From Oscillospiraceae bacterium (lineage in GTDB: Bacteria; Bacillota; Clostridia; Oscillospirales; Oscillospiraceae), in assembly GCA_902783035.1 (NCBI GenBank), contig CACZPK010000148.1, forward strand, positions 1-50,107: a DNA stretch of 50,107 bases, given 5' to 3'. Below the pieces are notes generated by a model that was given only the letters and a program-made list of their open reading frames with translations, had not been told where the DNA came from and searched no databases. Below are positions 40,923-45,949 of this stretch, one piece after another. Numbering within the stretch: the stretch's first letter is position 1; each line of letters starts with the position of its first letter. The translations under genes and the position numbers were made by a program.

Positions 40923-40951
40923 AGTATAAGAGGAAACCCCTTGTTTGTCAA
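40923..40951 (-). promoter_or_regulatory. Strong sigma-A promoter of the metal-efflux genes
   Basis: TTGACA (40951-40946), a 17-base spacer and TATACT (40928-40923) are almost consensus. The -35 overlaps an inverted repeat (40931-40943 with 40949-40960) that could be an operator or the terminator of the upstream germination gene. Confidence 0.85.
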
Positions 40952-41035
40952 GGGGTTCCTCCTTGCGATCCACCCCGCGCAGGTCATAGTCTTCGCCCCG
41001 TCCGCGGCGCGAAAACATCGCATGCGCCCGCCCGT

Positions 41036-42442
41036 TCAGGTGTTTTCACGGCTGATCGGTCGGCGGACGAGCAGCGCGTGCAGCGCGGCGCGGTCAAACG
41101 GCAGCAGCGGGTAAAGGTAGCTTTTTCCCGCAATGGGTTTGTTCGTCGCCAGCAGAGCAGCGATGATCGTGACGCCGAGCCCCAGTCCCAGCCAGTCCAG
41201 TGCGCCGACAAGGAGTAGCAGCATGAGGCGCAGCAGCTTGAACGCATAACCCAGTTCATAGCTCGGCTGGGCAAAGTTGGCAATGGCGACGAACGCCATG
41301 TACGCCAGCACCTCCGGCACAAGCCAGTGTGCCTGCACGGCAAAGTCGCCCAGCACCAGCGCGCCGATCATTGAAAACGAATTGGAAAATACGGGCGGCG
41401 TGTTGAGGGACGTGAGCTTGATGAGATCGACGATAAACTCCGCGAACAGCAGCTGCACCAGCAGCGGCACCTCATAATCCTCCGCGATGGCAAGGAAGTG
41501 CAGCGTCCCCTGCGTGGCGGCGGTTTTGACGAGCGCATACCATACGGGGGTGATGAACAGCGTAAGCAGAAAGACGGCGCAGCGCAGGATACGCAGATAG
41601 GAGCCGACGAGAGGCGGAAAATAGAAGTCGTTCGCCTCCTGCACGAAGTCGAAAAAGCTCGTCGGCAGGATCATCGCCGCCGGGGAATTGTCCACCAGCA
41701 AAATGACGCTGCCCTCCATGATGCAGGCGGTGGCAACGTCGGGACGCTCGGTGTAGCGGACATTGGGAAACGGATTCCACCACTGGGGTTTCATCATCGC
41801 CTCTGCGATGCTCTCCTGGCTCATGGCGACGGAGCGCACATCGATGGCGTCGAGCTTGCGCCGGATCTCCTCCAGCAGATCGCGATCGACCCTGTGCTCC
41901 AGATAGCACAGCGCCACGTCCGCACGGGAGCATTCGCTGATCTGGTGTCCCTCCAGCGTCAGGCGCGGATCACGGATACGGCGGCGCAGCAGCGCCGTGT
42001 TGACCGTCAGCGTTTCGATGAATCCGTCGTGCGCGCCGCGCAGCACTTTGCCGGACGACGGCTCCTCCACACCGCGCGCCGGATACTCCTTCGCGTCGAG
42101 AAGCGCGCAGGCGGCAAAGCCGTCGCACAGCAGCAGCGCCTTGCCGAGGAAAACGCCTGTGACGGCGGCGGACAGTTCGGTTTCGGTATTCACTTGCGCG
42201 AAGGTCACGTAGCGTTCGACAAACTCTTCCATCGTCTGCACCTCCACGGTGGACGGCACGGAGAGCAGATGCGCGAGGATGCGCTCCAGCACCGCACTGT
42301 CTCCGTAACCGTCGATGGCGTAGACGCGGCAGCGGCGCCGTCCGACATAGAGGTCGCGCGCCACGATGTCAAAGCTGCGTCCCACGCCCAGGAGCTTGTC
42401 GAGCCGCTGGGCATTGCGGGCATAGTCGTTTGTCAAAAGCAT
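41036..42442 (-). CDS. GerA/SpoVAF-family spore germination protein
   Basis: The 468-residue protein has the family's soluble N-terminal part (LGVGRSFDIVARDLYVGRRRCRVYAIDGY), the conserved block ESIAEAMMKPQWWNPFPNVRYTERPDVATACIMEGSVILLVDNSPAAMILPTSFFDF and four or five C-terminal membrane helices (for example LRILRCAVFLLTLFITPVWYALV). GerA-type A subunits sit in the spore inner membrane; SpoVAF modulates germination. No B or C subunit genes are adjacent, which favours SpoVAF over a complete GerA receptor. The ATG at 42442 has GGAGG seven bases upstream. Its SD lies in a hairpin and a sigma-G-like promoter overlaps that hairpin. Confidence 0.9.
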   Translation of the reverse strand: MLLTNDYARNAQRLDKLLGVGRSFDIVARDLYVGRRRCRVYAIDGYGDSAVLERILAHLLSVPSTVEVQTMEEFVERYVTFAQVNTETELSAAVTGVFLGKALLLCDGFAACALLDAKEYPARGVEEPSSGKVLRGAHDGFIETLTVNTALLRRRIRDPRLTLEGHQISECSRADVALCYLEHRVDRDLLEEIRRKLDAIDVRSVAMSQESIAEAMMKPQWWNPFPNVRYTERPDVATACIMEGSVILLVDNSPAAMILPTSFFDFVQEANDFYFPPLVGSYLRILRCAVFLLTLFITPVWYALVKTAATQGTLHFLAIAEDYEVPLLVQLLFAEFIVDLIKLTSLNTPPVFSNSFSMIGALVLGDFAVQAHWLVPEVLAYMAFVAIANFAQPSYELGYAFKLLRLMLLLLVGALDWLGLGLGVTIIAALLATNKPIAGKSYLYPLLPFDRAALHALLVRRPISRENT

Positions 42443-42448
42443 AAAAGC

Positions 42449-42487
42449 GCCTCCGGCATACCAGTTTTTCCTAGTATGACCGGAGGC
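42449..42487 (-). promoter_or_regulatory. Hairpin that hides the germination-gene SD
   Basis: 42449-42461 pairs with 42474-42487 (13 bp, one bulged base, 12-base loop). On the minus strand its 3' arm, GTATGCCGGAGGC, contains the GGAGG that serves the start at 42442. The arm is followed by GCTTTT, so it may also act as a weak terminator for the operon upstream, which ends eight bases before it. Confidence 0.7.
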
Positions 42488-42500
42488 TTCCGTATTATTC
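42472..42500 (-). promoter_or_regulatory. Candidate sigma-G (forespore) promoter of the germination gene
   Basis: GAATA (42500-42496), a 17-base spacer and CATACTA (42478-42472) fit the sigma-G consensus as I recall it (about GHATR-N17/18-CATNHTA). The start would fall near 42465, in the hairpin loop, giving a leader of about 23 bases. Confidence 0.65.
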
Positions 42501-43628
42501 CCAGAAAAGCAGTCTGACGCTGCCGCCCAGCAGATGGCCCGCGGCAAAATCCGCCATTGTGAGGCAGACGTCCTCCCTCTCGTCGTTGACGTTAAAGAAG
42601 CGGAACGTACCACTTTCCGTGCGGTAGTACGCCACAAAATGCGGCACTCGCTGCTCATGATAGCGGAAAACCCCCATGCGGCTGCACTCCGCCGCAGCGA
42701 GCGCGGCAGAGCGCCCGTGTACCTCACGCCAGCCGGGAAGGCGCTTGCGGAGGCAGCGCCGCATCACGTGCATAAACGTGGGGCCGGGAATGCGCAACAG
42801 GTGCATGTCGTCCATCTCCCGCAGCACATCCGGAAACGGAACGCTTTGCCCCGCGCGGTGCAGCAGGTTGTAGACGGCGACCGGACCGCAGGAATTGGCG
42901 CTGGCGGGAATAGAGCGGTAAGTGAACGCACCCAGCGCGTTTTGGTCCTTGAGGAACCCATCCTCCGTCCACGCATGCGCCTCGGGGATCGCGGGCGGTG
43001 CCTCGCGCGGCACGCTGAAACGAAGTGCCAGCTTCCACACAAGCCACGCGAGCGCCCAGGCGATCACAAGAACGACCAGGTACCACCGTACGCTTGTCCA
43101 GACCGGCTGTGAGCGGATGCGGAGAAAGAAATACGGTCCGTCCAGCACGCCCGCCAGGTTGAGCGCACTGGCAACGACCGCGTAGGCAAACGTCGGAACC
43201 AGCGCCCAAAGCGTTATACGCAGATCGGGCAGCGCCGCACGGTCAAAGAACACCAGCGAAGCAAAACCGAGGAGCGGACAGATCACGTGATGATACGGCG
43301 TCGACCCCCTCAGCAGATAGCCGGGCATCGCGCTCACACCGCCTCCCGCCGGAATGAGAATCAGCATCACGACCGAAAACGTCACCATGACCGTGCAGAC
43401 CGCAAAATACTTCAACACGCGCACCCAGCCGGGCACAAACATCCGTCGGTCCAGCAGGATGTTCCCCTCGTACCACGCCTGCGCGGAACAGGCGAGCAGC
43501 AGGAACAGATTGCTGCACAGCGTATAGTATCGGAACATGCTCCAACCGTCGATGCCGAAACTGATCCATGCGCCGATCGCCGACAGTATGGCGATCAGCA
43601 CATCGAGGCAAAAGGGTAGAACCGCCAT
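42495..43628 (-). CDS. Six-TM Pr6Pr-like membrane domain fused to a C39-like cysteine peptidase
   Basis: From the ATG at 43628 the protein has 377 residues. Six hydrophobic helices span about 5-200 (for example VLIAILSAIGAWISFGI, NLFLLLACSAQAW, YLVVLVIAWALAWLVWKLAL) and resemble the Pr6Pr/FAR-17a type. The C-terminal part has papain-like landmarks: Cys247 in SANSCGPVAVYNLL, His330 in RVPHFVAYYR and Asn348 in FNVNDERED. The helix count puts the peptidase on the same side as the N-terminus, probably the cytoplasm. Such domains mature or export peptides, but no bacteriocin-like peptide gene is seen. The TTG at 43637 is an alternative start; the ATG has AAGGAAG at better distance. It follows the DUF2156-GNAT gene by five bases. 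Confidence 0.75.
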   Translation of the reverse strand: MAVLPFCLDVLIAILSAIGAWISFGIDGWSMFRYYTLCSNLFLLLACSAQAWYEGNILLDRRMFVPGWVRVLKYFAVCTVMVTFSVVMLILIPAGGGVSAMPGYLLRGSTPYHHVICPLLGFASLVFFDRAALPDLRITLWALVPTFAYAVVASALNLAGVLDGPYFFLRIRSQPVWTSVRWYLVVLVIAWALAWLVWKLALRFSVPREAPPAIPEAHAWTEDGFLKDQNALGAFTYRSIPASANSCGPVAVYNLLHRAGQSVPFPDVLREMDDMHLLRIPGPTFMHVMRRCLRKRLPGWREVHGRSAALAAAECSRMGVFRYHEQRVPHFVAYYRTESGTFRFFNVNDEREDVCLTMADFAAGHLLGGSVRLLFWE

Positions 43629-43633
43629 TTGAT

Positions 43634-45034
43634 TCAAACTTCCTTATTAAAATAATAGAATGTCTCATCCTCGCCCGAGCGGCGCATGCAGGACGAGAGC
43701 ATCCGGTAGGACGCCTCGTTTTCCTTGTAGCACTTGGCAACGATGTGGGCAAGGTGCAGCTGGTACAGCCCCCACTCCGCCACAGCGGCAAACGCCTCGG
43801 TGCCGTAGCCGTTGTGTGCGTATGCCGGTGCGATGCGGCAACCCAGCTCCGCGCCGCCGCGCCCGTCGAACCGATAGAGCACCGCTTCGCCGATGCACGC
43901 CCCGTCCAGCCGCACGGCAAAGTTGACGGCGGCATGCGCTGCAAAATCATGGCGCGTCACGTCAAGGAAATAGTCCTCCAGCGCTTCGCCCTTCCAGTCG
44001 TCGCGGTAATCGTAGCCCCACCAGCGGTTGCGGTCATCGTCGAGGCACAGGGCGTTGTAAGCCGGCTTGTCCGCCTCGGTCAGGGCGGAGAGGGTCAGGC
44101 GCTGCGTGGTCAGCTTCGGGATCTCCGTGAGATCATACAGCTCGTTTTCCACGTCGAAGAAATACTTCTCCGCCAGCTGTGTCGGCAGGTACTGCAGCTT
44201 AGAGGTGCGCAGGCCGCGATCCGCATTGTCGTCCTCGCGGTTGAGCCAGCGCACTCCATCCGTGGCAAAATGGCGGGCAAATGCCTGCACCGTCGTCGGA
44301 TAAACGCCTTCGTAGCTGTAGAGCGCCTTTTCGATATGAATGTGCAACGTATCGCCGCACCGCTCCGCCATCGACAGCGAGAGCAGTTTGCCGTCCAGCT
44401 CCATGCCGCCGGTGAAAAAGTACGGCCGCCCCATCAGCTTGAGCATCCGCTTTGCCAACCGCTCCTCGCGCACCGCCTCCATCGACTGCTTGCCGAACTC
44501 ACGGTCGTAGTCCGCCCAAAAGCGCTCCACCAGCGCCTCGTCCCCCTTGCCGAGCGGGCGGAACACCGCGTCGGGATAGAGCTTGCGGAACTTATTGACA
44601 TGGTTGCGCTGTCCGGCGTAGTGGCGCCCCGGATAGTCCCGCAGGGACGACGCCTCATAGACATAATCATACCACATACGCAGATTGGACAGGCGAAAGC
44701 GCGGATAGCGCGGCAGCAATGCCGCCGCCTTTTCCGCCGGAAGGACGGAGAATTCCAGCGGCGTCGCGGTATCGACGCACCAGCGCTCGATCAGCGAAAG
44801 CGCGGCGTCAATGTCACCATCCTTGCCGGGCACGGGATAGTCAAAGCAATAAATGCCGTTCACGCAGTTGCGCACGATCAGGCAGCCCGCGCCCTCCGTC
44901 CACTCCGAGTGCAGGTATTCCTTCCACATCAGTTTGACGAGCGCGGAGTATTCGCACAAGCGATAGTCGCAGGTCTGATAATAGCGGCGCAGCCGCGGCA
45001 GATCGCGCTGCGTTACCGATTTGAATTCCAACAT
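43634..45034 (-). CDS. DUF2156-like domain fused to a GNAT acetyltransferase
   Basis: The 466-residue protein joins two acyltransferase folds. Residues 1-290 resemble DUF2156/phosphatidylglycerol-lysyltransferase C-terminal domains (KLMWKEYLHSEW, RHYAGQRNHVNKFRKLYPDAVF, EKALYSYEGVYPTTVQAFARHF, WLNREDDNADRGLRTSKLQYLP). Residues 300-466 form a RimJ/RimL-type GNAT domain (LTTQRLTLSALTEADKPAYN, ELGCRIAPAYAHNGYGTEAFAAVAEWG with the acetyl-CoA loop, NEASYRMLSSCMRRSGEDETFYYFNKE). The acceptors are unknown; a tRNA-dependent or acyl-CoA transfer to lipid, peptide or wall is possible. AAAGGAG precedes the ATG. It lies 15 bases after the LysR gene. Confidence 0.8.
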   Translation of the reverse strand: MLEFKSVTQRDLPRLRRYYQTCDYRLCEYSALVKLMWKEYLHSEWTEGAGCLIVRNCVNGIYCFDYPVPGKDGDIDAALSLIERWCVDTATPLEFSVLPAEKAAALLPRYPRFRLSNLRMWYDYVYEASSLRDYPGRHYAGQRNHVNKFRKLYPDAVFRPLGKGDEALVERFWADYDREFGKQSMEAVREERLAKRMLKLMGRPYFFTGGMELDGKLLSLSMAERCGDTLHIHIEKALYSYEGVYPTTVQAFARHFATDGVRWLNREDDNADRGLRTSKLQYLPTQLAEKYFFDVENELYDLTEIPKLTTQRLTLSALTEADKPAYNALCLDDDRNRWWGYDYRDDWKGEALEDYFLDVTRHDFAAHAAVNFAVRLDGACIGEAVLYRFDGRGGAELGCRIAPAYAHNGYGTEAFAAVAEWGLYQLHLAHIVAKCYKENEASYRMLSSCMRRSGEDETFYYFNKEV

Positions 45035-45049: not shown

Positions 45050-45949
45050 TTACGTCAGTGACAATTCCCGCACGATGCGTTCCGTGCAGTCGATGAAACG
45101 CCGCAGGATATCCGGCGCTTCCGCCAGCGAACGCACGGCAAGCCCCAGCTCCCGCGAGGCGGCAGGTTCCACGGGCAGCGTCAGCACGCGGTCGGTGCGT
45201 CCCTTGAGCGTCAGCTCCGTCATCATGCTGATGCCCAGCCCGTGGCTGACCATGTTCACGACCGTCGCGTCGTCCACCACCGTGGGCAGGATGTTCGCAT
45301 GCACGCCTTCGCGGTCAAAAATGCGCAGGATATCCTTGTCGAAGCCCTGTGCGGGCATGAGAAAATCCTTGCCGTCAAAGGCATGGAGCGGAAAGGTTTC
45401 GCGTCCCTCCGTCGGATAATCCGGCGGAAGCACGGCATACATGACGTCGTCCTTGAGATGCACCCAGTCGTACGGCCCCGGCTCCTGGCGGCTGACAAAG
45501 ATAATATCCATCTTCCCCTGTGAGAGCAGGGTATAGGGCGCGTCGACGTGATCCGCCATGCGGATGTCCACGTCCACCGTCGGGTTCTCCGTGCGGAACG
45601 CCTGCACGATGGCGGGCAGCCAGTGCATGGCAAGGCTGGCGTATGCCGCGGTGCGGATCGTCTCGCTGCGGGAGGCGGAAAGCTGGGTGACCATCTCGCG
45701 CAATTCCGCGTCGGCACGCAGCAGTTCCCGCATCAGCGGCGCGAGCTTCTCTCCCTCCTCCGTCAGACGGACGCCATGCCGCCCGCGGTCAAGAAGCGGA
45801 AACCCGATCTCCCGCTCCAGCGAATTCATCATGTGTGTCAATCCCGACTGTGTATAGCCCAGCACCTCTGCCGCCTTGGTAAAGCTGCCGAGATCCGACG
45901 CCATCAAAAGCGCCTCCAGTTTCTTGCTTTCCACCGTTCTATGCCTCAT
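45050..45949 (-). CDS. LysR-family transcriptional regulator
   Basis: The 299-residue protein has the N-terminal winged helix-turn-helix of LysR proteins (LEALLMASDLGSFTKAAEVLGYTQSGLTHMMNSLEREIGFPLLDRGRHGVRLTEEG) and the effector domain (about 95-295). The GTG at 45934 preceded by GAGG may be the true start, giving MESKKLEALL; the ATG at 45949 lacks an SD. It heads an operon with the DUF2156-GNAT and six-TM/peptidase genes, the reverse of the usual divergent arrangement. A symmetric T-N11-A box lies in its leader, so it probably represses its own operon. The effector is unknown. Confidence 0.93.
   Translation of the reverse strand: MRHRTVESKKLEALLMASDLGSFTKAAEVLGYTQSGLTHMMNSLEREIGFPLLDRGRHGVRLTEEGEKLAPLMRELLRADAELREMVTQLSASRSETIRTAAYASLAMHWLPAIVQAFRTENPTVDVDIRMADHVDAPYTLLSQGKMDIIFVSRQEPGPYDWVHLKDDVMYAVLPPDYPTEGRETFPLHAFDGKDFLMPAQGFDKDILRIFDREGVHANILPTVVDDATVVNMVSHGLGISMMTELTLKGRTDRVLTLPVEPAASRELGLAVRSLAEAPDILRRFIDCTERIVRELSLT

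Follow-up and report, generated by a model that had tools for sequence, protein, structure and literature searches.

A predicted forespore promoter nested in the Shine-Dalgarno-bearing hairpin upstream of a GerA-family germination gene in an Oscillospiraceae bacterium

The GerA locus and its leader

The analysed stretch of DNA (the window, 50,107 nucleotides, contig CACZPK010000148.1) comes from a gut bacterium whose own genome amounts to 2.55 Mb at 85% completeness. On its minus strand lies a gene for a 468-aa protein that reached 434 bits against the Pfam GerA profile (curated cut-off 27) and thus falls within the GerA family; among NCBIfam models GerXA alone was returned for this protein, far under its cut-off. 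Judged by the profile match, the product is a GerA-family germination protein, and the choice between SpoVAF and another GerA-type protein is left at the level of the family. A run of LysR, GNAT and 380-aa genes on the same strand spans 45949-42495 with gaps of at most 15 nt. The 380-aa protein gave no Pfam or NCBIfam match at E ≤ 0.001, and no Rfam family was found within the window. The features of the locus are the following.

41036-42442, minus strand: GerA-family spore germination protein, 468 aa (Pfam PF03323, E 6.7e-130)
42443-42448, minus strand: spacer GCTTTT between Shine-Dalgarno sequence (SD) and ATG, a possible weak U-tract of a terminator
42450-42454, minus strand: SD GGAGG, part of the hairpin 3' arm, 7 nt before the ATG at 42442
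42449-42464, minus strand: hairpin 3' arm (CTGGTATGCCGGAGGC), from the fold
42465-42470, minus strand: hairpin loop GAAAAA with the predicted start at its end, from the fold and an assumed spacing
42471-42487, minus strand: hairpin 5' arm (GCCTCCGG, bulged T, CATACTAG), wholly upstream of the predicted start
42472-42478, minus strand: -10 element CATACTA, N17 after GAATA, doubling as the upper part of the hairpin 5' arm
42496-42500, minus strand: -35 element GAATA, overlapping the TAA stop (42497-42495) of the upstream gene
42495-43637, minus strand: upstream co-directional gene, 380 aa, whose stop overlaps the promoter
43634-45034, minus strand: fused LPG_synthase_C / GNAT protein, member of the upstream gene run (profile match)
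45050-45949, minus strand: LysR-family regulator (profile match), the most distal of the three co-directional upstream genes considered

The promoter GAATA-N17-CATACTA, proposed in an earlier note on this DNA together with a start in the hairpin loop, was located at 42500-42472. The start was placed at 42465, 7 nt past the -10 box, by a spacing that we take to apply here and that is uncertain by about 2 nt. The leader fits a GNATR-N17/18-CATANTR-like motif, which we take to be the sigma-G promoter consensus, and its promoter would accordingly be of the sigma-G forespore type, presumably used by sigma-G. Since the TAA stop of the upstream gene overlaps the -35 box, there is no room for a separate terminator in between. 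The upstream run being on the same strand and its last stop overlapping the -35 box, RNA from the run must enter the hairpin unless it has ended earlier.

The stem is made of 16 pairs, one G-U among them, and one bulge. Its 5' strand comprises GCCUCCGG (42487-42480), a bulged U at 42479 and CAUACUAG (42478-42471), and its 3' strand CUGGUAUG (42464-42457) followed by CCGGAGGC (42456-42449). The 5' arm begins in the promoter spacer and takes in the -10 box; the predicted start (A, 42465) lies between the arms. A hairpin of 13 bp had been described before; its existence and the position of the SD in its 3' arm held, and the length is corrected by the present count. Because the 3' arm pairs with CATAC it contains an out-of-frame ATG, from which an 8-codon ORF without SD (42459-42433, minus strand) overlaps the start of the GerA gene. 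Elsewhere in the window, at 40923-40962 (minus strand), a TTGACA-N17-TATACT promoter precedes heavy-metal ATPase genes, and its -35 is enclosed as the loop sequence by the two arms of an inverted repeat (GGAACCCCTTG / CAAGGGGTTTCC); this repeat could be the terminator of the GerA gene or a site for a metal regulator.

Folding of 42500-42410 (91 nt) gave −33.4 kcal/mol (z −5.1), which 1 of 200 shuffles equalled, and folding of 42500-42440 (61 nt) gave −30.2 kcal/mol (z −6.5), equalled by none of 200. The RNA from the predicted start at 42465 to the ATG folded at −3.4 kcal/mol (z +0.4), and for the RNA 42471-42410 a z of +0.8 was found. In the modelled read-through RNA the SD sits in the 3' arm of a stable stem, and its opening cost 14-16 kcal/mol with 60-400 nt of upstream sequence included. 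The modelled cost was 6.5 kcal/mol for the promoter-started RNA and 6.2-7.4 kcal/mol for starts within 4 nt of 42465. As the 5' end was moved upstream in the model, the SD stayed open to about 40 nt before the ATG and closed at 43-46 nt (around 42484).

We read the hairpin as a silencer of read-through RNA that encloses the forespore promoter of the gene itself, and give a probability of about 0.7 to silencing of the read-through RNA combined with a free SD in RNA from the nested promoter. RNA entering from the abutting upstream genes, presumably in growing cells, would carry both arms, its SD would be locked in the 16-bp stem and the germination protein would go unmade. RNA started in the forespore would begin in the loop, lack the 5' arm and present a free SD. 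A start in the loop removes the 5' arm, so that promoter choice would also decide translation. The T-rich spacer past the stem may contribute some termination in the genus. That read-through RNA hides the SD and forespore RNA frees it had been suggested in the earlier note; the modelled costs of 14-16 against 6.2-7.4 kcal/mol agree with the suggestion, as does the nesting when leaders of relatives are compared.

Promoter and hairpin in related leaders

The GerA protein was found in 16 of 18 genomes of the genus (own included) and, in a scan of the family, in 46 of 400 genomes at E ≤ 1e-80; from a second collection the best 80 of 277 confirmed stretches were retained. The 84 loci taken (L001-L025, L031-L050, L066-L089 and L131-L145) yielded 81 distinct leaders after removal of L082, where upstream DNA is absent, and of two duplicates. 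L026-L030 and 41 leaders of L090-L130 were kept outside the leader counts, and L051-L065 served solely to extend the flanks of genus members and to supply control genes. As controls we took the starts of 122 other genes in the window and in L051-L089; in the masking test each was given a nominal start 20 nt ahead of its ATG.

A promoter score of at least 15 was reached by 71 of the 81 distinct orthologous leaders against 2 of the 122 control gene starts. With the same finder, the best site had a VATAHTR -10 box in 71 of 81 leaders and 5 of 122 controls. Spacers in the 71 leaders measured 17 nt (25 leaders), 18 nt (45) and 16 nt (1), under a scoring that favoured 17-18 nt, and a VATAHTR -10 was combined with a GNATR -35 in 55 of the 81. 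Of the 74 distinct leaders at protein identities of at least 53%, 70 have kept the -10 box; L003, L015, L016 and L089 are the exceptions. L003 does contain GAATA-N17-CATACTA, more than 100 nt from the ATG and with no visible SD (by eye). At L056 (positions 500-740) the GerA promoter is kept in a leader that is more than 100 nt longer, again with no visible SD before the ATG. The promoter match by itself was rejected as evidence: in the own genome GMATA-N17/18-MATAMTR had 3 matches against 5 for the reversed control, and CATACTR with a loose -35 had 12 sites against 32. As the motif is not commoner than its reversed control, the evidence lies in its conservation.

SASP genes were used for comparison, with a readable start in 23 of 30 loci (six of unusual length were skipped and one was startless). 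Their best promoter-like matches scored 11.4-16.2 at 8-103 nt from the ATG. The layout of the gerA leader appears to differ from the usual form of these leaders, in a comparison that concerns promoter matches rather than folding. Nine SASP leaders of the genus (L148, L150, L151, L152, L155, L156, L159, L162 and L173) have GCGATACCCAA in common upstream of the SD.

Masking was scored as SD opening in the read-through RNA relative to 200 shuffles of spacer and discriminator with the promoter boxes fixed (100 shuffles for each control). The testable set comprised 69 of the 81 leaders, with a promoter score of at least 15 and 12-40 nt from start to ATG; 12 were left out. Masking at p ≤ 0.05 was seen in 19 of the 69, namely 7 of the 12 genus leaders and 12 of the 57 others, and at p ≤ 0.01 in 14 (7 in each group), compared with 8 and 3 of the 122 controls, whose median p was 0.59; two controls exceeded z 4, the highest at 9.4. 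A rank test of leaders against controls gave 2.6e-11, and 3e-9 for the 57 non-genus leaders, both uncorrected for kinship. Mean SD opening over the 69 leaders was 8.2 kcal/mol in read-through RNA, 5.6 kcal/mol after shuffling and 3.1 kcal/mol in the short RNA. The other 50 leaders fell short of p ≤ 0.05 against shuffles: for most outside the genus the effect was modest and singly not significant, and in L012 the read-through RNA was modelled as more open than the short RNA (2.4 vs 7.4).

Exchanging the 5' halves between species lowered mean SD opening from 8.2 to 6.0 kcal/mol. None of 20,000 permutations reached the sum for matched halves, either over all leaders or over those outside the genus; for the 12 genus leaders, 3 of 20,000 did. 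Leader by leader, 11 of 69 ranked in the top 5%. Seven aligned genus leaders contained one pair changed on both sides, which 239 of 500 shuffles reached. As a set, to judge from their sequences, the relatives keep the nested architecture beyond composition.

These data bear on two other origins of the inverted repeat. A C-rich promoter spacer beside a G-rich SD pairs easily, and the own leader could be a lucky draw. Composition alone does raise pairing: three or more SD bases pair with sequence ahead of the start in 54 of the 69 natural leaders, in 62% of shuffled versions and in 36 of 122 controls, and C-rich spacers by themselves thus raise SD pairing. The shuffles beaten in the 19 leaders keep composition, however, no permutation attained the matched sum, and a strong stem is present in 7 of 15 genus relatives; chance is a very improbable explanation. 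Equally improbable is a reading in which the repeat serves as a DNA operator, bound over the promoter by a dimeric regulator, and the RNA hairpin is incidental. Operators often cover the -10 box, as this repeat does, but the arms differ in sequence from species to species and yet match the SD side better than swapped halves do, and the 5' arm shifts relative to the start, for example from -21 to -17 in one case to -8 to -2 in another.

A hairpin was called strong when masking reached p ≤ 0.01, which in the genus applied to L001, L004, L005, L006, L007, L008, L010 and L011; L006 was scored separately (p 0.005) because of its longer leader. Absence of the hairpin or of CATACTA from close relatives had been named in the earlier note as speaking against its idea. 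By that measure the idea is borne out in part: 8 of the 16 genus orthologs, the own one counted, have the strong hairpin, and a promoter is missing from this place in L015 and L016. For 13 of the 16 genus leaders the upstream neighbour was classed, partly by eye, with L005 (contig end), L015 and L016 (no promoter there) left out. Where a co-directional gene abuts, the hairpin was strong in 7 of 8 leaders (L001, L004, L006, L007, L008, L010 and L011; L003 lacks an SD-hairpin despite its abutting gene). Where none abuts (L002, L009, L012, L013, L014) it was strong in 0 of 5, L013 coming near at p 0.055 (Fisher 0.0047 between the two groups, kinship uncorrected). Within one upstream gene family, the leaders without a gap for a terminator (L001, L007, L008, L010) have a strong hairpin, and L002, with a terminator-like hairpin in its gap (by eye and fold; omitted by the terminator finder), has a weak one. 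On the protein tree, five changes are needed to account for the ten strong leaders among 23 rows, which hence do not form one clade. Outside the genus, masking was not affected by an upstream terminator (14 vs 43 leaders, p 0.45) or by which way the upstream ORF runs (mean z 0.86 over 29 co-directional and 0.92 over 13 divergent cases), and L017 has a strong hairpin although its best upstream ORF points away.

The hairpin might instead be mainly the intrinsic terminator of the upstream run. Because the gap is only 52 nt, SD and spacer would then double as 3' arm and U-tract, masking would be a by-product, and forespore RNA, starting in the loop, would escape termination. Both this and the masking reading share the nesting and differ in whether read-through RNA ends or stays untranslated. 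The SD-ATG spacer is T-rich in six of the eight strong genus leaders (L001, L005, L007, L008, L010, L011), and where a GGAG spacer was readable (62 of 69) the T fraction was 0.40 in 13 strong leaders against 0.16 in 49 others (p 0.0025). On the other side, L004 and L006 combine a strong hairpin with a spacer that lacks a T-run, and beyond the genus the strong leaders show no T-richness (0.16, n 6, vs 0.15, n 45). The own leader has the GC-rich stem of an intrinsic terminator; its tail GCTTTTATG contains four T in a row at most, and a simple terminator scan lists none there. The earlier suggestion that arm plus GCTTTT may terminate some read-through finds backing in the T-rich genus spacers and is opposed by L004, L006 and the strong leaders of other genera. 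A terminator as the main role is in our view unlikely, and masking of read-through RNA, in favour of which the recurrence of the nesting after ispE (below) also counts, is the preferred reading.

A second nested promoter after ispE

A covariance model of nine genus leaders was searched over the 18 genus genomes with at most 150 candidates scored per genome. It ranked its nine training leaders first, followed by 40 further rows, among them a match in the own genome on G000:C60 (E 1.1e-4).

G000:C60:23469-23531, minus strand: forespore-like promoter GTATG-N18-CATACTG in a terminator-like hairpin directly after ispE (TIGR00154) (L196/L209)

The -35 of this promoter overlaps the ispE stop, and the hairpin is followed by GTTTTTATG and a small ORF of 66 aa, whose conserved product had no Pfam or NCBIfam match. 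An ispE locus was recovered from 16 of 18 genus genomes, all 16 of which have CGTCCATACT and a hairpin with a T-rich tail. The arrangement follows the ispE stop in 15 of 16 (some 50 nt further on in L216) and lies elsewhere in the locus in L219. When each of the 16 loci was trimmed to a stretch of 49-54 nt with the hairpin in it, all predicted pairs spanned the predicted start, and T made up five or more of the nine bases after the stem; L220 (G015) has a weak hairpin (−14.6 kcal/mol).

In the alignment of these loci the 5' side is invariant (columns 8-17), and partners for ATACT are unpaired in 19 of 80 cells. An invariant 5' side whose partners often fail indicates that the promoter side is probably conserved for its own sake. 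Changes on both sides of the hairpin amounted to four pairs, reached by 164 of 500 shuffles, and 12 cells, reached by 10 of 500. With GTNTR, the promoter after ispE has a weaker -35 than the gerA leader, and it may be used by sigma-F or sigma-G; the promoter sets of these two factors probably overlap in C. difficile, according to passages of PMC7438776.

The 66-aa protein had a match in 8 of 300 family genomes, with L242 and L243 as weak homologs in other genera (E 5e-4 and 6e-4). In both, at about 1330-1500, a forespore-type promoter again lies in a hairpin, which hides the SD in L242 and follows an ispE-like coding sequence in L243. Eight of the 40 further rows comprise the ispE case (L196), an SD hairpin (L190) and six (L188, L191, L197, L198, L199, L208) that were set aside by eye as terminator-like or in-gene repeats. 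Judged by eye, the 12 own-genome sites of CATACTR with a loose -35 include two nested ones (gerA and ispE) and two in ordinary-looking leaders (L231, L235).

In an Oscillibacter relative (L064:2660-2710), GAATG-N18-GATACTA occurs inside a terminator-like hairpin, with a small ORF between it and the GerA gene; in L063 the terminator is present and the -10 degraded. The ispE locus, T-rich after the stem throughout, and the promoter-like sequence of L064 both count in favour of a terminator. An aldo/keto reductase-like gene after GerA (L053:4440-4490), with a long SD-hiding hairpin over TATACT, was discarded by eye as an ordinary sigma-A-type leader.

Known systems and meaning

For B. subtilis sigG (spoIIIG), passages of PMC5942855, which cites Masuda 1988 and Sun 1991, describe a large hairpin of 20+ bp that is proposed to keep RNA running in from the operon in front untranslated and that is absent from RNA started at the gene's own promoter; the sigG mRNA itself has a smaller, mutation-tested RBS hairpin (PMC5942855). 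The GerA leader resembles sigG, as portrayed there, in having a forespore promoter just before the gene and behind another operon. It differs in encoding a germination protein instead of a sigma factor and in its bacterial lineage, and the likeness drawn here is one of layout. In T4 gene e (lysozyme), early read-through RNA hides the SD and RNA from the late promoter, devoid of the 5' part, translates well, with a 100-fold effect on synthesis (PMC3014915, in the part concerned). Gene e uses a phage late promoter, unlike the GerA leader, whose layout is known from sequence and modelling. Sections of PMC2988022 and PMC3014915 report that the RBS of T4 I-TevI is sequestered in RNA from the upstream promoter and freed by an adjacent late promoter, and name similar arrangements for I-TevII, I-TevIII, segB and Aeh1 mobE. 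Unlike the GerA gene, all of these encode homing endonucleases and lie within introns or between genes of phages.

The design is thus already known from sigG and T4, and the GerA leader adds a further case. In a literature search of partial coverage, apart from the sigG and T4 precedents, nothing was found on the leader of the GerA gene or on a terminator that encloses a forespore promoter; recurrence of the design within one lineage, terminator form included, would be new. Tentatively, and at somewhat less than even odds, the nested forespore promoter may be a reusable insulation device of the family, in which promoter and upstream terminator and/or SD mask share one inverted repeat. A forespore gene directly behind a vegetative gene would then be silent in every read-through RNA and expressed solely from its own start, with at least two cases in the own genome (gerA and after ispE) and lineages shifting between SD-mask and terminator forms.

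For bulk RNA data this carries a warning, since the transcript level of such genes need not equal protein. The natural cases with their many variants, added to sigG and the T4 late genes, make the design testable by comparison. If true, it would explain how compact spore-former genomes, with genes back to back and no room for terminators, keep forespore-only proteins out of growing cells.
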